In this document: positions 3,741 through 18,084 of the stretch, piece after piece
How the letters are laid out: each line of letters opens with the position of its first letter
Position numbering within the stretch: the first letter of the stretch is position 1
From: Alphaproteobacteria bacterium
GTDB taxonomy: Bacteria > Pseudomonadota > Alphaproteobacteria > UBA6615
Direction: 5' to 3'
DNA length: 64,000 bases
Assembly: GCA_039980135.1 (NCBI GenBank)
Contig: JBDXCV010000011.1
Coordinates: forward strand, 124,001-188,000
Translations under genes and position numbers: made by a program
Notes under the pieces: model-generated
Database searches by the model: none
What the model was told of the DNA's origin: nothing
What the model saw: the letters and a program-made list of their open reading frames with translations, nothing else

Positions 3741-4781
<1,041 letters not shown>

Positions 4782-4799
4782 CTGGTTCCGAAATCGGTC

Positions 4800-4830
4800 G
4801 GTCCGCGTGCCGAAAATACGGGCGTGGACC
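4800..4830 (+). terminator. Imperfect hairpin after ilvC
   Basis: GGTCCGCGT (4801-4809) can pair with CGTGGACC (4823-4830), allowing G-U pairs and a small offset. No U-run follows, so it is at best a weak or factor-assisted terminator, or an RNA-end stabiliser for the ilv transcript. Confidence 0.3.
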
Positions 4831-4918
4831 GAAACCGGCTGGTTTGGTTAACAAAATCGTTGCGGTTCTACATAAAAACGCTCTAAAACAAGGGCGTTAA
4901 GGCACTTTCTTTGCATAC

Positions 4919-4939
4919 TGGTGAACCGATCGTTCACCA
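4919..4939. promoter_or_regulatory. 21-bp palindrome upstream of the leuA leader
   Basis: TGGTGAAC (4919-4926) and GTTCACCA (4932-4939) form perfect 8-bp arms around the 5-base spacer CGATC. The site lies 70 bases before the leader ORF, in the likely promoter region of leuA, and looks like a binding site for a dimeric regulator. No regulator gene is adjacent. Confidence 0.4.
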
Positions 4940-5008
4940 TTTGTTAACTGCCCTGCGTCGATTCTTCGTGTTCGAGGTTCCGCCGGGGCCGTTGGGGAGA
5001 TTCAGGGC

Positions 5009-5146
5009 GTGGCAATTGTCCGCACAGCATTCGAATTGTCAGCGCAAACCGTTCGTGGTTTGCCGACAGTTGATCTGTGCCTGACCACTCTCGATCTCGA
5101 CGCACTTCTTATCGGCGGTGCGGCCCTGCGACTTAGGTGCCCCTGA
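5009..5146 (+). CDS. Leucine-rich leader peptide of leuA (candidate)
   Basis: A 45-codon ORF starts at a GTG with a strong GGGGAG site at 4994-4999, nine bases upstream. Ten of 45 codons are Leu, and eight of these fall in the last 23 codons (5075, 5081, 5090, 5096, 5105, 5108, 5126, 5132), including an adjacent CTT CTT pair. The ORF ends at TGA 5144-5146, inside the left arm of a hairpin. This is the layout of a ribosome-mediated attenuator sensing charged tRNA-Leu. That role is inferred from codon content, position and structures; I do not recognise a named leader family. Confidence 0.5.
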   Translation: MAIVRTAFELSAQTVRGLPTVDLCLTTLDLDALLIGGAALRLRCP

Positions 5147-5214
5147 GCATAAACAGGCCATAGCGGGCTGCGTTGTTCAGGGGAGAGTTCACCACCACCC
5201 TAAGTCAGCAAACC
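5037..5214 (+). promoter_or_regulatory. Alternative RNA structures of the leuA attenuator (candidate)
   Basis: GCAAACC (5044-5050) pairs with GGTTTGC (5057-5063) around GTTCGT, with TGTC/GACA as an extra outer stem. The same right arm, read as GGTTTGCCGAC (5057-5067), can instead pair at 10 of 11 positions with GTCAGCAAACC (5204-5214), just before the leuA ribosome site. A third stem joins GACTTAGG (5130-5137) to CCTAAGTC (5199-5206) and encloses CCCCTGA (5140-5146) with TCAGGGG (5177-5183). The folds exclude one another and overlap the Leu-codon run. No U-tract follows, so control may be translational. Confidence 0.45.
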
Positions 5215-11389: not shown

Positions 11390-12535
11390 ATGGCACGGCT
11401 CAGCGGCACCACGGCGACCAAGCTCACCTTCCGTCAGAAGCTCCTGCATCTGAACTGGGAGTTCGTGCTGCTGATTATTCTGACCGCGTCGATCGGCTTC
11501 GCGATGCTGTTTTCCGCAGCGAATGGCGACTTCGACCCCTGGGCGTCGCGTCAACTCATGCGATTTGCGGTCGGGGTTCTGCTGATGCTTGCGGTCGCGA
11601 TGACCGATATCCGTATCTGGTTGCGAGCGGCCTTTCCGATTTACGGGGTATGCCTCGGCCTGCTGGCGGCGGTCGAACTCATGGGGTCGATCGGCATGGG
11701 TGCGCAGCGCTGGCTCGATCTCGGTTTCTTCCAGCTTCAGCCGTCGGAAGTGATGAAGGTCGCGGTGGTCCTGGCGCTGGCACGCTACTTTCACGGGCTG
11801 GATTCCGAAGATGCCGGCCGGCTGACGAATCTCGCGATTCCGATCATCCTGGTTGCCGCGCCGATGGCCCTGGTTCTGCGCCAGCCCGACCTGGGTACGG
11901 CCGGTGTCGTGGCGATGGTCGGCGCCGCGATGTTCTGGTTGGGTGGTGCGCGGCTCTGGCAGTTCGCGACGGTCGCGGCGGCGGCGGCGGCGGCGGTGCC
12001 GATCGGCTGGCAGTTCCTGCACAGCTACCAGAAACAGCGGATCTTCACGTTCCTCAATCCCGAGACCGATCCGCTCGGGTCGGGCTATCACATCCTGCAG
12101 TCGAAGATCGCGCTCGGTTCGGGAGGCCTGTTCGGCAAGGGTTTTCTTGCGGGTACCCAGAGCCATCTGAATTTCCTGCCCGAGAAGCAGACAGATTTCA
12201 TCTTCACGATGCTGGCCGAGGAGTTCGGGCTTGTCGGCGGGACCGGATTGATCGCTTTATACGGGCTGCTCATCGCTTACGGTATCTATATCGCGTTCCG
12301 CGTCCGCAGCCATTTTGCGCGCCTCCTGGCGATGGGCCTGACGGTGAATTTCTTCCTCTATGTGTTCATCAACATCGCCATGGTGATGGGCATTCTGCCC
12401 GTGGTCGGGGTACCCCTGCCGCTGATTTCCTACGGCGGCACGGCGATGCTGACGGTGCTCATCGGCTTCGGCCTGATCATGAGCTGCTGGCTGCACCGCG
12501 ATACCTACATCAACAAGCGCGGCGGCGCCGCCTGA
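11390..12535 (+). CDS. mrdB: SEDS peptidoglycan glycosyltransferase RodA
   Basis: Polymerises lipid II into glycan strands together with PBP2. The 381-residue polytopic membrane protein has about ten hydrophobic segments. The SEDS signatures are QPSEVMKVAVVLALARYF near residue 115, RQPDLGTAGVV near 165 and the C-terminal GVPLPLISYGGTAMLT near 340. Residues 200-215 are an alanine run encoded by a GCG-rich repeat. It closes the shape operon. A short hairpin without a T-run (CCGGCA 12537-12542 / TGCCGG 12551-12556) follows the stop. Confidence 0.94.
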   Translation: MARLSGTTATKLTFRQKLLHLNWEFVLLIILTASIGFAMLFSAANGDFDPWASRQLMRFAVGVLLMLAVAMTDIRIWLRAAFPIYGVCLGLLAAVELMGSIGMGAQRWLDLGFFQLQPSEVMKVAVVLALARYFHGLDSEDAGRLTNLAIPIILVAAPMALVLRQPDLGTAGVVAMVGAAMFWLGGARLWQFATVAAAAAAAVPIGWQFLHSYQKQRIFTFLNPETDPLGSGYHILQSKIALGSGGLFGKGFLAGTQSHLNFLPEKQTDFIFTMLAEEFGLVGGTGLIALYGLLIAYGIYIAFRVRSHFARLLAMGLTVNFFLYVFINIAMVMGILPVVGVPLPLISYGGTAMLTVLIGFGLIMSCWLHRDTYINKRGGAA

Positions 12536-12623
12536 CCCGGCAATTAACCGTGCCGGCAGGGGGTACGCGTATCGACAATCCGGGTCGCGGGTGTTATATC
12601 CGCCGCCGCTTCAAGCGCACGGT

Positions 12624-12699
<76 letters not shown>

Positions 12700-12758
12700 T
12701 TTACCCCATTGATATTATTGAGAAAATACACATTCTGCATTAGGTCAGGGTGGGGTAA

Positions 12759-12823
12759 CTGTCAGACTTTTTGAGGCCTGTCAGACTCTAAAAATGTCTG
12801 ACGGACGCCCCCAACTGTCTGAT
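12759..12823. repeat. GTCAGAC motif cluster near attL
   Basis: GTCAGAC occurs at 12761-12767 and 12780-12786 (both as CTGTCAGAC), its complement GTCTGAC at 12796-12802 and a GTCTGAT variant at 12817-12823, spaced 16-21 bases apart. With similar sites near attR they resemble arm-type binding sites of a tyrosine integrase; this is inferred from position. An additional palindrome, CTGATT-CTA-AATCAG, lies at 12851-12865 before the DUF4238 gene. Confidence 0.5.
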
Positions 12824-12901
12824 TTCAATAGATAATTGTATTAAGAACACCTGATTCTAAATCAGTTGATCAAGTTTGCTTCCACGGACAATAGTGATCT
12901 G

Positions 12902-13116
12902 ATGAACGCACAACGCGCAAAGCGTCAGCACACCGTTCCTAGATTCTATCTCGAATACTTTTCTGACGAGGAAAAGATGGTGTGGAGTTATGACCAGGTC
13001 GAGAACGAAGTGCGGCCTGCAGTTGCCAAAGAAACAGGCGTCGAAAAGAACTTCTATTCCCCGCAGGACAACGACGGGGCCTATATCGATGACATAGACA
13101 ACTGGTTGGATGACGT
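12902..13116 (+). pseudogene. DUF4238 protein gene, 5' part (split by transposon)
   Basis: The first 71 codons plus two bases of a DUF4238 protein. The product begins MNAQRAKRQHTVPRFYLEYF, the family's characteristic N-terminus (basic, then QH-VP-FYL, aromatic-rich). The frame runs to the GATGACGT target duplicate and continues exactly at 15812: GT from 13115-13116 plus T from 15812 restores a Val codon. The rejoined gene would be 981 bases, 326 residues. Its function is unknown. I chose the ATG at 12902; a TTG at 12866 is in frame but less like the family. Confidence 0.85.
13109..13116. repeat. 8-bp target site duplication, left copy
   Basis: GATGACGT directly abuts the left inverted repeat and recurs at 15804-15811. 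Eight bases is the duplication length expected for IS1595-family insertion. Confidence 0.93.
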
Positions 13117-13140
13117 GGGAATAGTATACCTTGCAAACCC
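13117..13140 (+). repeat. Left terminal inverted repeat of the transposon
   Basis: Starts GGGAATAGTATACCTTGCAA; matches the complement of 15780-15803 at 20 of 24 positions. Confidence 0.9.
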
Positions 13141-13191
13141 AATTTCCGTCCCCATATATGATTCTAGCAATGAATCTATTGGGTTACGGTT

Positions 13192-14130
13192 ATGTCGATT
13201 CTATCGAAAAAGCATTTTCACAACGAGAAAGCGGCTTTCGCTTATCTTGAGTCACTTCTCTGGCCGGATGGCCCCCAGTGTCCGCACTGTGGCGTCATCA
13301 ACAATGCTGGCAAGCTGAAGGGCAAAACCACGCGCGTTGGATTGTGGAAGTGCTACGAGAAAGAATGCCGCAAGCAGTTCACGGTGAAGGTCGGCACGGT
13401 TTTCGAGCATGGCCGCATCCCGCTGTACAAGATGCTACAGGCGACCTACCTGATGTGCAGCAGCAAGAAGGGCGTGAGCGCCCATCAACTGCACCGCACG
13501 CTTGAGGTCACGTACAAGACGGCCTGGTTCCTGGCCCACCGCATTCGCGAGGCGATGCGCGAGGGGAAAGTTCCGGGCGGCCTCGGCGGTGATAACAAGG
13601 TTGTTGAGGCTGACGAGACGTTCGTTGGTGGCAAGGCGAAGAACGCGCACAACAGCAAGCCGATCCCGCCGAAGGAGGCGGTGTTCTCGCTTGTGGAGCG
13701 TGACGGTCGGGTTTCGTCCCATCACGTCGCTGCGGTGAACGCGCGGACGTTGCGCCCGATCTTGGTCACGCATGTTGATCGCAAGTCGTATCTGATGACG
13801 GACGAGGCGCGGCAGTACGTGAAGATGGGCGAGGAGTTCTCCGGCCACGGTTCGGTGAACCACTCGATTGAGGAATATGTGCGCGGCACGTTCTGGCACA
13901 CGAACACGATTGAGAGTTATTTCGCGACGTTGAAGCGTGGCATTGGCGGCACCTACCAGCACGTCAGCCAGCAGCATTTGAAGCGGTATCTTGGCGAGTT
14001 CGATTTTCGCTACAACTACCGTGCGGCGCTTGAGGTTGATGACACGGAGCGCACTGAAAAGGCGTTGTCGGGCATCGTTGGCAAGCGCCTGACCTATGGG
14101 GGGTCTGGTGCGGCGGCGCAAGCGGTCTAG
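13192..14130 (+). CDS. IS1595-family (ISXO2-like) transposase
   Basis: Cut-and-paste-type DDE transposase of the surrounding element. The 312-residue protein has an N-terminal zinc ribbon (CPHCG near residue 30 and CYEKECRK near 55), a helix-turn-helix-like middle (KGVSAHQLHRTLEVTYKTAWFLAHRIREAM) and the catalytic domain. Acidic residues are Asp141 (EADETFVGGK) and Asp204 (MTDEA), followed by Asn238 and Glu241 in HTNTIESYFATLKRG, the DDN-plus-Glu pattern of the family. It is full length without frameshift and probably functional. The gene ends 85 bases before a UUCG hairpin shared with the converging DUF3800 gene. Confidence 0.93.
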   Translation: MSILSKKHFHNEKAAFAYLESLLWPDGPQCPHCGVINNAGKLKGKTTRVGLWKCYEKECRKQFTVKVGTVFEHGRIPLYKMLQATYLMCSSKKGVSAHQLHRTLEVTYKTAWFLAHRIREAMREGKVPGGLGGDNKVVEADETFVGGKAKNAHNSKPIPPKEAVFSLVERDGRVSSHHVAAVNARTLRPILVTHVDRKSYLMTDEARQYVKMGEEFSGHGSVNHSIEEYVRGTFWHTNTIESYFATLKRGIGGTYQHVSQQHLKRYLGEFDFRYNYRAALEVDDTERTEKALSGIVGKRLTYGGSGAAAQAV

Positions 14131-14214
14131 GGGTTGACCCGTTTGCGTGCTGTTGTGGCAAAGTAAACTTGCAGGACTGAACCCGCCTCTAGTGGCGGAC
14201 GTAGGCCCTGCTTC

Positions 14215-14232
14215 GGGGCCCTTCGGGGCCCC
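14215..14232. terminator. UUCG-tetraloop hairpin between converging genes
   Basis: GGGGCCC (14215-14221), loop TTCG, GGGCCCC (14226-14232) make a perfect 7-bp stem closed by the very stable C(UUCG)G tetraloop. It lies between the end of the transposase gene and the end of the DUF3800 gene. There is no T-run, so it may act as a bidirectional RNA end or stabiliser. Confidence 0.5.
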
Positions 14233-14235
14233 GCC

Positions 14236-14928
14236 CTATCTTATGACGCCCATTGGATCACTTGGGTTGGCGGCCCGGACCACAACGTTGTCCAGCAGGT
14301 CGAAAGCTTTGTGAACGTCGTAAGCATTTTTTGACGCTAGTGGTTTTTCGCGCCTCAGGAGACCGTAGGCGCAGAAGTCTGCCATTTGGACGAAATAGGA
14401 TCGGTGCGACTCCTTGAAGAATGGGTCTTCGAGAATGCGGTCAAGTGGGACATGGTCGATACTGCCGTCCGACCGATAAATGGGGTTGAACACGCTCATT
14501 CTGCGGGCAAGGCGCGTGTATTCGAGTTCTTTGCCCTCGTCGCAGACAAGAAGGGCGTGACTGTCCCATGCGCGCATTGTGCGTTCGATCCGGGTAAGCA
14601 ACCGCTCGAAGGCCCAATCATGTTGGGATGTTCTGCACACGTTGAAAACGCGCACGCCGTCTAGGGAGTTTAAAAGTTGGAACGCGTTGCGAAATATCTG
14701 GCTGCGGCGGTATTTGGTGATGATCTTGGGCCCCAGGCGCCCGCGCCCGCCGATAAACTCTGTTGCGTGAAATTCCTTCTGCACAAAAATGCCATCAGTT
14801 TCTTTGAGGCGGCGACGCCAGTCTCGGATTGCGCGAAATGTCGTTAGCCATTGTGTTGCTGGCACAGCGACGGCAGAAAATGTGATGTATGGGCGTTCGT
14901 ACGAATCGTCGATGTAGATGAGGTGCAT
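14236..14928 (-). CDS. DUF3800 domain-containing protein (transposon cargo)
   Basis: A 230-residue product with the features of DUF3800: N-terminal MHLIYIDDSYERPYITF, the KEFHATEF block, an internal acidic motif LLVCDEGKELEY, and the C-terminal YFVQMADFCAYGLLR helix. The conserved acids suggest a metal-dependent, possibly nuclease-like fold; no activity is established and I do not assign one. The open frame runs on upstream to 15171, but MHLIYIDDS is the family's natural start. Its ATG abuts the ATG of the opposite-strand small gene (the sequence CATATG at 14926-14931), so the two initiation regions overlap. Cargo status follows from its position inside the transposon ends. Confidence 0.85.
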   Translation of the reverse strand: MHLIYIDDSYERPYITFSAVAVPATQWLTTFRAIRDWRRRLKETDGIFVQKEFHATEFIGGRGRLGPKIITKYRRSQIFRNAFQLLNSLDGVRVFNVCRTSQHDWAFERLLTRIERTMRAWDSHALLVCDEGKELEYTRLARRMSVFNPIYRSDGSIDHVPLDRILEDPFFKESHRSYFVQMADFCAYGLLRREKPLASKNAYDVHKAFDLLDNVVVRAANPSDPMGVIR

Positions 14929-15081
14929 ATGGGCAAGCCTACAAAGAAGTCTCAATCTGAAAAGTTCAAAGACCTTGCCCGCGAGATCGACGCGGACGAG
15001 GACAAGGATGCGTTTGAGGGCAAGCTGCGCACCATTGCGCGACAAAAAGCCCCCAAAGATAACCCGAAGGACGAGAAATGA
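14929..15081 (+). CDS. 50-residue charged protein (transposon cargo)
   Basis: Product MGKPTKKSQSEKFKDLAREI followed by an acidic stretch DADEDKDAFEGKL and a basic Lys-rich tail; about half of its residues are charged and it is probably helical. It resembles small conserved proteins with a KF+ (DE)xARE pattern that I associate with DUF3800 genes, but I cannot confirm this here. GAGGTG at 14920-14925 is a good ribosome site and lies within the first codons of the divergent DUF3800 gene. Its stop overlaps the next ORF's ATG in an ATGA at 15078-15081. Function unknown. Confidence 0.7.
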   Translation: MGKPTKKSQSEKFKDLAREIDADEDKDAFEGKLRTIARQKAPKDNPKDEK

Positions 15082-15281
15082 TGATGCGATCTCTCCAGCC
15101 GGAAACCAGTGCCCGCATGGGCTGCCCTTGCGGACACGCATCGGATTGCGCTGTCCACAACGAACCGGCAATGCCGGCTGGAGAGTGCACGTGCGGGCTT
15201 ACAACTGAGCGTAAATCCCGTCCTTCATTGCAGAGTCGTGCCGTACGTAGCCCGGCCTTGGCCCGGGGAACGACTCGTTAA
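15078..15281 (+). CDS. Cys-rich small ORF (possible zinc-binding cargo protein)
   Basis: A 67-codon ORF coupled by an ATGA overlap to the charged-protein gene. Residues 14-39 read GCPCGHASDCAVHN then EPAMPAGECTCG, a symmetric arrangement of five Cys plus His that would suit zinc binding. The second half (from about residue 41) overlaps the end of the opposite-strand WYL-like gene by 83 bases and has low-complexity Arg/Ser content, so the true product may matter only in its N-terminal half, or the ORF may be spurious. Confidence 0.4.
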   Translation: MMMRSLQPETSARMGCPCGHASDCAVHNEPAMPAGECTCGLTTERKSRPSLQSRAVRSPALARGTTR

Positions 15282-15492
15282 GGATCTCCAAGGACCTTAC
15301 GCGGTCCTCGCGGAATAAATCCCAGTCGTGGCCCGGTGTTTCATGGGGGCCGTTGACCTGAAAAGCGCGAAGGAGATTCTTTCCTTCGGAGCTGCGGCCA
15401 TAGGCGTGAGGCTCAATGGTCCGTACGCCCACGGTGTAATCAACGCGCAGCAAGCGCCGCTCGTTGATGGCCTGACATATAATATCGTTCAT
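15199..15492 (-). CDS. WYL-like small protein (transposon cargo)
   Basis: A 97-residue protein starting MNDIICQAINERRLLRVDY. It has a WYL-like core: a strand with RVDYTVG, then RTIEPHAYGRSSEGKNLLRA, FQVNG, and a tail GPRPGYVRHDSAMKDGIYAQL. WYL folds bind nucleic acids or ligands and often occur in regulators, but here there is no attached HTH, so it could be a stand-alone ligand sensor. The ATG at 15492 has GGAAAGAGA upstream on the minus strand; in-frame sequence extends to 15576 without such a site. Function unknown. Confidence 0.7.
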   Translation of the reverse strand: MNDIICQAINERRLLRVDYTVGVRTIEPHAYGRSSEGKNLLRAFQVNGPHETPGHDWDLFREDRVRSLEILNESFPGPRPGYVRHDSAMKDGIYAQL

Positions 15493-15641
15493 TGACGATC
15501 TCTTTCCCCCAGCATTGCTGGGCTTGTGGAAAGGACCGTCTTGCGCAGAATCGTTCACTGGCGTACCAATGAACACAGGGAGAAATCACTTCCTTATTCA
15601 AGTGCACCCGCGACGGTCCTCAAAAATTGGCGCGGGAAGCC

Positions 15642-15683
15642 ATAACGCCGGAGTGTGATCAGACACTCCGGCGTTATTTTATT
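15642..15683 (+). terminator. Strong rho-independent terminator near the transposon right end
   Basis: A perfect 15-bp stem, ATAACGCCGGAGTGT (15642-15656) with its complement (15663-15677), encloses the loop GATCAG and is followed by TTTTATT. It is oriented for plus-strand transcripts and could stop read-through from the element into the flanking host gene. From 15493 to here there is only the upstream region of the WYL-like gene. Confidence 0.85.
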
Positions 15684-15779
15684 CCGATTCGGCTGAGTCG
15701 CTTTCCGAAGATTTATCCATAAATCAATTGGATAACGGGGATGGATTGTGTTTTCCGCAACCTGTCACCCAACCTGTAG

Positions 15780-15803
15780 GGGTGTGCAAGGTATACATAT
15801 CCC
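15780..15803 (-). repeat. Right terminal inverted repeat of the transposon
   Basis: Read on the minus strand it starts GGGATATGTATACCTTGCAC and mirrors 13117-13140, with four mismatches in 24. Confidence 0.9.
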
Positions 15804-15811
15804 GATGACGT
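15804..15811. repeat. 8-bp target site duplication, right copy
   Basis: GATGACGT, identical to 13109-13116, immediately after the right inverted repeat. Confidence 0.93.
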
Positions 15812-16577
15812 TGAGGACAAAGCGTCAAATATTTATCCAAAGCTTCTTGCTGGTGAGCAAATCGCGGGTCAGCAGAGAGCTGATTTTTCTGTGTTTCTGG
15901 CGAGTCTGTATACCCGCAGCCCTGCATACATACGAGCGATGGCAGAGCTCTATGGATTCCAAGTGCAGCATGCTGCAAAAGTGGTTTTTGGCGAGCGGCG
16001 GTCTTTTGAAACTGAAATGGATAAGCTTGATGAAGAGCGTGGTACGGAGACTGATGGTCTTAGACGCGACGAGCTATTTTCTATCGTAAAGGATTTGTCG
16101 AGCTTTGAACTTTCTGTTGACCGTAAGGTTGGGCTTAGAGGGATGGCAGTCACCGACACCCTCACTCAGATATTTATGGACATGAACTGGAGTATCGGAA
16201 CGTGTTCCGATCAACATTTAGTTACGAGCGACAATCCCATCGTTCGGCTAACTCCACCAAACGAATATCACCCGATCTACGGTGACGGCGCATTCGCGAA
16301 CAAGCGCACCTATGTGACCGTACCTCTATCTGCCTCGGTAATTCTGGAAATGAGATGGTCCAGTCCGGTGGGCAAAGGCATGCTTCATGTCCCGAAACAG
16401 CGCGGACGGCTTTACAACAGACAACGAGCTGTATTTTCTGAGCGATATCTTTACGCGTCCCGCAACGACATTGGTATTAGGACACTTGGACAAAAGCATC
16501 GAAAGCCGGGCCTAAATATAAGTGTTTCGGGATTGGGGAATAGCATGGAGATGAAGATAAAGAGACGCTTGGACTAG
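15812..16577 (+). pseudogene. DUF4238 protein gene, 3' part (split by transposon)
   Basis: Continues the frame broken at 13116. Joined residues read LDDV, then EDKASNIYPKLLAGEQ and FLASLYTRSPAYIRAMAE, matching the helical core of DUF4238 proteins, with SDNPIVRLTP further on and a basic C-terminus ending MKIKRRLD. A GTG at 15891 could start a 228-residue fragment, but there is no clear ribosome site, so expression is doubtful. It is the only native gene of the islet. No inactivating change other than the insertion was seen, so precise excision would restore it. Confidence 0.85.
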
Positions 16578-16596
16578 ACCGCGAGCCTTGGACTCT

Positions 16597-16650
16597 GTCT
16601 GTCAGACAATCCCCCGAAAAGGCACTTGTTTGCCCATGTTTTAGTCTGAC
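16597..16650. repeat. GTCAGAC motif copies near attR
   Basis: GTCAGAC at 16601-16607 (within CTGTCTGTCAGACA) and GTCTGAC at 16644-16650 match the cluster next to attL. They lie 30-90 bases before the right repeat, a layout compatible with integrase arm sites. Confidence 0.45.
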
Positions 16651-16681
16651 GTGACGTTGATTTCATTGGATAGTCCATATT

Positions 16682-16726
<45 letters not shown>

Positions 16727-16914
16727 ATTATTTTAAAGGCTTAGCTGGCGACGGCTGAGCCTTTACCGTTTCCGGCATTCGATGGAGGGGCGTGCCACGG
16801 TCTTGCCCGGATCAGCGGGCGGTTCATGGACATGCCCCGGGCGAAACCATAGAATTTGTTCAATACAAAGAATGCGCCGCCACGACAATGCATGGGCCGC
16901 ACCCGGGGGAGTTC

Positions 16915-18084
16915 ATGACAACCAGAGACCGTCTGCAGATGGGCGCATTTTTGCCGCCGCATCACCCAAACGACGAAGACCCGACCCTGGCGATGGAGCG
17001 CGATTTGGCCCTCGTCGAACATCTGGAGCAGCTCGGCTACCACGAAGCGTGGATCGGTGAGCATCATTCGGGCGGGTTCGAGATCATTTCCTCGCCGGAA
17101 CTCTTCATCGCAGCGGCCGCTGAACGGACACAGCGGATCATGCTCGGCAGCGGGGTGGTCTCGCTGCCCTATCACAACCCGCTGATGGTGGCAGAACGCT
17201 TCCTGCAGCTCGATCACCAGACCCGGGGACGCGCCATGCTGGGCGTCGGGCCGGGCCAGCTGCAGACGGATGCGCGGATGCTCGGGATCGATGCCGCGAC
17301 GCAGCGCGACCGGATGGCGGAATCCCTGGAAATCATCCTGCGCCTGTTCAACGGCGAGACGGTCACCCATGAATCCGACTGGATTACCTTGCGGGGTGCG
17401 CACACCAACCTGAAGCCCTATACCCGCCCCCGGCCGCCTGTCGCCATTGCCAGTGCGGTGACTCCTTCAGGTGCCAAACTTGCCGGCCGGCACGGGCTCG
17501 GCATGCTGTGCCTGGCGGCCAGCGTATTTGCCGCTTACGACGTGCTGGATGTGAACTGGGGTATCGCCTGCGACGCGGCCGCGGAAAACGGTCTCTCCAT
17601 GGATCCGGCTGATCTGCGCCTTGTGGTGCCCATGCATCTGGCGGAGACGCGCGAGAAGGCCTGGTCCAACATTCAGTTCGGTTTCGAACCCTGGGAGGAT
17701 TACAGCTTCTCGGTGAACCCGAAAACCGGATTGCTCGGTCTCGGCGGCATCGAGGAAGCGGTGAAGACGGGTCTTGCCGTCGTCGGCACACCGGATGATG
17801 CGGTCGCCTGCCTGGAGAAATACTGGGCCAAGACCGGCGGCTTCGGTTGTTTCCTGCATCTGGCCACGAACTGGGCCGATTTCGAGGAAACGAAGCGTTC
17901 GTATGAACTGTTTGCGCGCTATGTGATGCCGAAATTCGCGGGTCGCAATACCCAGCGTGAAGCCTCGCTACAGTGGATGAAGGACAACCGCGAGGAATTC
18001 AGCCAGTCCTATCGGGACGCCTCGCAAGCGGCCATCGACCGGCACTTCGATGGAAGTGCGCCGTCTCCGACGAAGGACGGCTGA
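16915..18084 (+). CDS. LLM-class flavin-dependent monooxygenase
   Basis: A bacterial-luciferase-like FMNH2-dependent oxygenase, cytosolic, 389 residues. It shows the TIM-barrel pattern MGAFLPPHHP, EQLGYHEAWIGEHHSGGFE (typical EHH after the first strands), IMLGSGVVSLPYHNPLMVAER and RGRAMLGVGPGQL. The substrate is not predictable from sequence; close family members include limonene- and alkanal-type monooxygenases. The ATG at 16915 follows GGGGGAG at 16905-16911; upstream in-frame ATGs at 16792 and 16888 lack such a site. It needs a reductase; one flavin reductase is encoded far away at 62.6 kb. Confidence 0.85.
   Translation: MTTRDRLQMGAFLPPHHPNDEDPTLAMERDLALVEHLEQLGYHEAWIGEHHSGGFEIISSPELFIAAAAERTQRIMLGSGVVSLPYHNPLMVAERFLQLDHQTRGRAMLGVGPGQLQTDARMLGIDAATQRDRMAESLEIILRLFNGETVTHESDWITLRGAHTNLKPYTRPRPPVAIASAVTPSGAKLAGRHGLGMLCLAASVFAAYDVLDVNWGIACDAAAENGLSMDPADLRLVVPMHLAETREKAWSNIQFGFEPWEDYSFSVNPKTGLLGLGGIEEAVKTGLAVVGTPDDAVACLEKYWAKTGGFGCFLHLATNWADFEETKRSYELFARYVMPKFAGRNTQREASLQWMKDNREEFSQSYRDASQAAIDRHFDGSAPSPTKDG

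Follow-up and report, generated by a model that had tools for sequence, protein, structure and literature searches.

Does the DNA enclosed by a small bacterial transposon travel as one unit, or is it replaced piecemeal around a retained core? The question is raised by a transposon at positions 13117-15803 of a 64-kb stretch of contig JBDXCV010000011.1 (that whole stretch is the window, and its transposon the window element), which a preliminary description made from the letters alone had presented as an IS1595-family element whose four cargo open reading frames (ORFs) form a single module. The window element is a complete IS1595-family transposon with an intact transposase. From its relatives we judge it probable that it is a transporter insertion sequence (IS) in which the transposase and a 50-residue protein, here called SMALL, persist as the cargo slot is rewritten, in many cases with predicted nucleases.

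Relatives were collected by a transposase scan of genome contigs, from which 80 loci were kept out of 155 confirmed, and by a transposase search of 385 genomes of the same class, which gave matches in 103 and from which 29 more loci were taken. These 109 loci were scanned for ends; 72 could be delimited, 3 duplicates (L010, L012, L018) were dropped and the window element was added, giving 70 elements. An element was delimited where its terminal inverted repeats (TIRs) agreed at 18/24 positions or more and were accompanied by a target duplication of 7/8 or better, or where the TIRs alone agreed at 20/24 or more. For L101 a second-ranked TIR pair (3153 bp) fits better, and its ORFs past 3200 were excluded from the cargo set. 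Many of the 37 undelimited loci end at a contig edge or at the 1.5-kb flank of the retrieved stretch. A tree of the 70 transposases (L034, described below, is absent from it) was used to count trait changes by parsimony, and the counts were compared with those from 100 label shuffles. All 70 elements are at least 1587 bp long, too long in every case for a bare IS that consists of the ~0.95-kb transposase alone.

Exchange of the cassette beside SMALL

Among the matches listed, the transposase closest to the window's (84% identical) belongs to L034, from a Kiloniellaceae metagenome bin. Its DNA is similar to that of the window element over element bases 1-980 (77%) and over 105 bases at SMALL (76%), and the segment between these two stretches gives no significant DNA match. 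In the window element that segment, between transposase and SMALL, holds a gene of the DUF3800 family on the minus strand; in L034 it holds an ORF without a Pfam match and then a PIN gene, on the plus strand (PF01850, 35 bits against a cut-off of 23.6). Common to both are the transposase, SMALL and a WYL-like ORF (34% identity). The ends of L034 lack a matching duplication, which may mean that this copy is old or has been rearranged. The pairs L068/L064, L066/L064 and L075/L050 also have similar transposase DNA, no similarity reported mid-element and an island of 69-83 bp at SMALL; in the remaining pairs of the same comparison the match is limited to the transposase. At the level of DNA similarity, these alignments show a cassette exchanged between close relatives while the tiny gene is conserved.

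SMALL occurs in 43 of the 70 elements, the window element included, in all 43 on the strand of the transposase, and in 15 of the 37 undelimited loci. Its consensus is Q-x2-KF-x3-AREL-E-x-DEDE-x2-F-x3-L-x-KIAK, and an AlphaFold2 (AF2) model (mean predicted local distance difference test score, pLDDT, 81) has two helices, 9-19 and 26-38. The window and L034 copies differ at 10 first, 6 second and 17 third positions of 37 codons, and the 60 closest SMALL pairs together show 475, 400 and 921 changes at codon positions 1, 2 and 3, a third-position excess as expected of a translated protein. The window's SMALL has no match in Pfam, NCBIfam or PHROGs; 41 members compared with NCBIfam and PHROGs gave best E-values of 0.0039 and 0.0056, nothing convincing, and comparison with PDB sequences and PDB folds likewise gave nothing convincing. 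On the transposase tree its presence requires at least 6 changes (shuffles: mean 21.7, range 15-27), under the shuffled range, indicating that SMALL follows the transposase backbone.

A SMALL profile found 25 places in 22 of the 385 class genomes, and at 19 of them an IS1595-type transposase or fragment lies upstream on the same strand within ~4.5 kb (at one of the 19, G320, the transposase is 39% identical); these neighbourhoods were read from match positions, with longer stretches inspected for ten places. Of the 16 places that the profile found in 349 genomes sampled from the phylum, 4 were already known and 12 new; nine of the new ones fit the arrangement, two of them with fragments only. 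L186, a transposase with PIN-type cargo and SMALL, is in a genome listed under the same phylum and a different class; the arrangement thus spans more than one class.

The rest of the cargo behaves differently on the same tree. Cargo class requires 34 changes (shuffles: mean 41.1, range 37-46), so that cargo as a whole follows the backbone weakly; DUF3800 requires 16 (mean 17.4, range 12-20), within the shuffles, and therefore does not follow the transposase tree.

Passengers and setting of the window element

The window transposase scores 112.7 bits with PF12762 (DDE_Tnp_IS1595; cut-off 27) and 179.2 with NF033547 (transpos_IS1595; cut-off 75), and its N-terminal zinc ribbon is above the cut-off of PF12760 (Zn_ribbon_IS1595), with C30, C33, C54 and C59 conserved. 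Across the 70 transposases (its own included) 66 columns are conserved to 93% or more, and at every one of these it carries the consensus residue; conserved residues include D141, D204, E241 and K248, and E241, K248, E269 and R273 are likewise conserved in this set. An 8-bp target duplication of the kind made by the IS1595 family, GATGACGT, flanks the element on both sides. The cargo amounts to ~1.6 kb, with DUF3800 and further ORFs between the ends, which makes the element a transporter IS (tIS). The preliminary description had thus been accurate about the 24-bp inverted repeats and the duplication, the intact transposase, the passenger DNA, the DUF3800 label, the existence of the 50-aa and Cys-rich ORFs and the internal hairpin that it read as a strong terminator (Table 1). 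As side observations, more distant IS1595-type loci (L149-L168; transposase 32-40% identical) could be delimited, by ends of at least 16/20 together with an exact duplication, in 12 of 20 cases; these 12 elements span 1995-4165 bp each. Many of the distant elements have GGG..ATTATAT ends.

Table 1. Positions in the window of the element's parts and of the gene that it interrupts
Feature	Position	Strand	Remarks
Target duplication, left copy GATGACGT	13109-13116		identical to 15804-15811
Left TIR, 24 nt	13117-13140	+	20/24 complementary (83%) to 15780-15803
IS1595-family transposase, intact, 312 aa	13192-14130	+	PF12762, PF12760, NF033547
DUF3800 passenger, predicted RNase-H-fold nuclease, 230 aa	14236-14928	-	PF12686 full length
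SMALL, charged 50-aa protein, predicted helical hairpin	14929-15081	+	head to head with DUF3800
Cys-rich ORF, 67 aa	15078-15281	+	overlaps SMALL stop codon; no Pfam match
WYL-like ORF, 97 aa from ATG	15199-15492	-	Pfam WYL (PF13280) under cut-off
Terminator-like perfect 15-bp hairpin with T tail	15642-15677		inside element
Right TIR, 24 nt	15780-15803	-	pairs with 13117-13140
Target duplication, right copy GATGACGT	15804-15811		exact 8-bp match to left copy
Host DUF4238 gene, interrupted by element	12902-16577	+	PF14022 on both halves

The DUF3800 protein covers the whole of PF12686 (45.4 bits against a cut-off of 21). Its AF2 model (pLDDT 84.5) has RNase HII (1eke) as its best PDB match in Foldseek (E 1e-4), at a TM-score of ~0.43 that signifies a match of topology and not a close match; in an alignment of 21 DUF3800 sequences D184 is invariant and D7 nearly so. 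An RNase H fold has already been published for DUF3800 (passages of PMC10910872 and PMC12669027). The window's protein is accordingly predicted from its model to have an RNase-H-like fold and to be a nuclease. A candidate structured RNA associated with DUF3800 was rejected: an Rfam scan of 12400-17000 (E up to 1) has no match inside the element, and a scan of 13 related loci has none at gathering score. No DUF3800 was confirmed in viral contigs. The 385 class genomes hold 83 DUF3800 places, at least 4 of which adjoin a transposase among the matches listed; being mostly elsewhere, the family is not tied to these elements.

Passengers do recur among the related elements, as had been anticipated. 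DUF3800 is present in 20 of the 70 elements and a PIN-type gene in 10 (both counts include cluster mates of Pfam-positive proteins), without overlap, so that 30 elements hold one or the other. Where the cargo is of PIN type, SMALL either overlaps the PIN gene's end or starts close by (L063: PIN to 2220, SMALL from 2217). Pfam matches (E up to 0.001) in the cargo set of 143 proteins, made up of the window DUF3800 plus 142 ORFs of 85 aa or more, comprise DUF3800 (18), PIN (7), SocA_Panacea (4), PIN_10 (3), NYN (2) and single matches to HNH, HEPN, AlbA_2, DUF5615, DUF433, KTSC, Cas2-like and other families; the majority of the 143 have none. A pAgo cargo candidate, from PADLOC on the A2 set, was traced to L042; the Pfam domains there are AlbA_2 and HATPase_c_4, and the match probably reflects a domain shared with the PADLOC profile. 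A further family of ~160-250 aa with two invariant residues, R-x4-H, occupies 13 elements (L041, L086, L053 and ten others), all SMALL-less. R-x4-H is the spacing of HEPN RNases; a HEPN label, suggested by the motif alone, was rejected, none of five members scanned one by one (L041, L086, L021, L040, L035) matching HEPN models.

Fourteen of the 27 SMALL-less elements (L086, L044, L043, L046, L088, L062, L059, L077 and six more) carry a second tiny basic family, SMALL2, with the consensus R-D-x-L-L-x2-L-L-K-T-P-P-x-P-R. It lies on the minus strand in 10 of the 14, and in 9 of these 10 (L043 not being computable) a plus-strand ORF of 90 aa or more has its start within 14 nt of it; in the other four (L088, L062, L059, L077) it lies on the plus strand, at the position that SMALL would occupy. 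In some pairs SMALL2 is the sole conserved island, of ~50-110 bp, amid unrelated cargo.

Removal in silico of the window element and one duplication copy restores DUF4238 as a single open frame. The window genome holds one intact copy of the element and a 32-aa remnant on a different contig. Plasmid records matching the element by DNA number 38, none reaching 80% coverage; among the 20 listed the matches are confined to the transposase, with a best coverage of 22%. Around the insertion, a tRNA-Lys(CTT) gene (12624-12699) has its 3' 45 bases exactly duplicated at 16682-16726, 4.0 kb downstream; the evident genes of the islet between them are the transposon and the interrupted DUF4238 gene only, and inspection of its ORFs showed no integrase. 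By eye, motifs TGTCAGACT and TGTCTGAC are repeated at 12760-12830, 5' of the DUF4238 gene, perhaps as an operator or promoter feature, and a G+C-rich hairpin GGGGCCCTTCGGGGCCCC lies at 14204-14235, where the transposase and DUF3800 genes converge.

How the slot may work, and competing explanations

Judging from its anatomy, the transposase, which combines a zinc ribbon with a DDE-type domain, would move everything between the inverted repeats and leave the 8-bp duplication. The scaffold would run in the order left end, transposase, exchangeable cassette, SMALL, variable right segment and right end, with the slot filled by DUF3800 in the window element and, in relatives, by PIN and its companion, by a different DUF3800, by a Panacea-type antitoxin gene or by a protein without a known family; a sister clade carries the R-x4-H family. 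Whichever strand it is on, the cassette appears to abut the start of SMALL, with DUF3800 placed head to head and PIN upstream with stop and start overlapping. A passenger may be kept for the advantage that its carriers would gain from a nuclease directed against cells infected by phage or plasmid, or against cells losing the element; a role of the passengers in defence or addiction is plausible. SMALL may be an element-side protein that regulates or licenses the adjacent gene or the transposase, not a private antitoxin of DUF3800, and we infer that it controls or licenses the passengers. More speculative, and in our estimate doubtful, is the extension that this IS1595 branch is a plug-in platform for nuclease-type effectors, with a slot starting at the SMALL start codon and SMALL as adaptor, licensor or general silencer, allowing effectors to be exchanged without rebuilding their control.

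Several observations weigh against a rewritten slot beside a persistent transposase and SMALL. SMALL is absent from 27 of the 70 elements, and 13 of those lack SMALL2 too, so mobility in general requires neither. The window transposase lies in a 19-row clade (SH-aLRT 96) in which SMALL occurs only in the window element and L105; both carry DUF3800, and SMALL thus seems to have moved jointly with it there. The simplest reading of this placement is that the right part of the window element, or its transposase, would have been exchanged between lineages; by eye, the window ends resemble those of the SMALL clade more than those of its tree neighbours. In the class sample a same-strand transposase is missing upstream of 6 of the 25 SMALL places, namely three strong matches (G326:C127, G259:C112, G079:C42), two weak ones (G219, G179) and G309:C152, which has a transposase fragment on the opposite side; in the phylum sample 3 of the 12 new places do not fit (at L185 the transposase is on the opposite strand, and two have none). 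Sixteen of the 43 SMALL elements hold neither DUF3800 nor PIN, PADLOC finds no family for the window DUF3800, and no individual Pfam result backs an RNase label for the R-x4-H family. Finally, a duplication of 7/8 or better is present in only 57 of the 70 (L101 not counted), 12 having been accepted by their ends alone.

Two alternatives concern SMALL only and overlap the account favoured here. The first, that SMALL is a transposition accessory or a regulator of the transposase to which the passengers are unrelated, we hold possible, though short of probable. It accommodates the constant strand, the few tree changes and the retention of SMALL through cargo exchange, but less readily the elements with exact duplications that lack both tiny families (e.g. 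L030, L055) or the presence of SMALL in the window element, inside a nearly SMALL-less clade. Slightly less credible is a toxin-antitoxin pair in which the nuclease is the toxin, SMALL neutralises it and effector families are replaced over time. A tiny charged protein of either family is present in 57 of the 70 elements, and reading frames are head-to-head or overlapping with the adjacent gene; yet a small partner tied to one toxin family is not what is seen, SMALL accompanying DUF3800, PIN, Panacea-type and other cargo. One protein would have to serve these unrelated partners, as well as the elements with neither DUF3800 nor PIN, and L109 holds the transposase, SMALL and just a 103-aa ORF without a Pfam match.

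We consider it unlikely that, as first described, the four passenger ORFs form one coherent defence or addiction module of sensor, effector and modulator that moves as a unit. DUF3800 and SMALL do keep company, in 18 of the 20 DUF3800 elements. In the window element their start codons abut with zero gap (DUF3800 CAT 14926-14928, SMALL ATG 14929-14931), and in 15 of 16 other elements with both genes the smallest start-codon gap is at most 23 nt (67 in L110), an optimistic figure since it is the minimum over candidate starts; L015 is an exception, with DUF3800 on the other side of SMALL. Moreover, the two SMALL-bearing elements of the window's clade are both of this DUF3800-SMALL kind, and in L185 a head-to-head DUF3800-SMALL pair (4468-5202) neighbours a different IS1595 transposase that lies on the opposite strand; L185 was rejected as a second element type for want of a convincing TIR pair, none being detected around the gene pair. 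On the other side, DUF3800 is missing from 25 of the 43 SMALL elements, and L034 retains SMALL and the WYL-like ORF with PIN and its companion in place of DUF3800, which largely refutes the four-gene form. Nothing found supports the chain of sensor, effector and modulator. Of the genes expected to recur together, DUF3800 and SMALL do so; the WYL-like ORF was found in only 3 of 71 elements (window, L034, L036). That ORF exists, but its label is weak: it scores 14.2 bits over 18 positions of PF13280 (cut-off 21.8), and its L034 homolog, over 61 of the 70 WYL positions, reaches 16.3 bits, still under the cut-off; with homologs only in L034 and L036, a WYL regulator was rejected. Support for the Cys-rich ORF is limited to a C-x2-H...C-x-C stretch, with a 24-aa match in L034, and it was rejected as a conserved gene, the motif being present in 2 of 71 elements (window, L034). 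Least credible by far are randomly captured passengers with no common theme, for although most of the 143 cargo proteins have no Pfam family, DUF3800 lives mainly outside these elements and the changes of cargo class are near the shuffled level (34 against 37-46), DUF3800 or PIN fills 30 of 70 elements, as against 83 DUF3800 places in 385 whole genomes.

If the pattern of a rewritten slot beside a retained SMALL holds, small transposons would be a little-noticed route by which predicted defence- or addiction-type nucleases are spread and swapped among bacteria, and SMALL and SMALL2 would be markers with which to find many more passengers, mostly of no known family. The passenger-gene idea then becomes a testable question: why does a 50-residue protein stay while its neighbour changes?

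Comparison with known systems

Within the IS1595 family the window element may be akin to the ISNwi1-like subgroup, characterised by its end sequence, DDEK and an E-x3-R signature: the putative likeness lies in the zinc ribbon, the DDE-type residues, E-x3-R past the last catalytic residue and the GG..ATTATAT-type ends of many relatives of the window element. PADLOC's phage-defence candidate PDC-M04A matches 9 of the 72 cargo proteins of set A1, including the DUF3800 of L092 and L096, and differs in leaving the window DUF3800 unmatched.

DUF3800 accessory proteins have been described at CRISPR loci, in the Cas12a2 branch (in part of PMC10910872) and in V-A2 and VI-F (in part of PMC12669027). 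They share with the window protein the Pfam domain name and the RNase H fold, whereas the window's gene stands alone in a transposon, next to that of a tiny protein; a TPR domain or CRISPR locus, neither of which was searched for, did not turn up in the window element.

Members of the IS1595 family usually have one transposase gene, according to a passage of PMC8101967, unlike the 70 delimited elements, all of 1587 bp or more. ISs with passenger genes are named transporter ISs in passages of PMC3129680 and PMC7986276, and the former credits the tIS to Siguier et al. 2009 on the IS1595 family. The window element and its relatives are like them in that IS ends and a transposase enclose non-transposition genes, with an 8-bp duplication, and differ from what those passages describe in a slot exchanged among close relatives, a tiny protein that is retained and passengers that are often predicted nucleases. 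No description of the tiny protein or of cargo swapping was found in the titles and abstract openings of openly accessible literature on IS1595 cargo and on DUF3800 and transposons. Transporter ISs are thus already known, and the comparison suggests that slot swapping beside a retained tiny protein is new.

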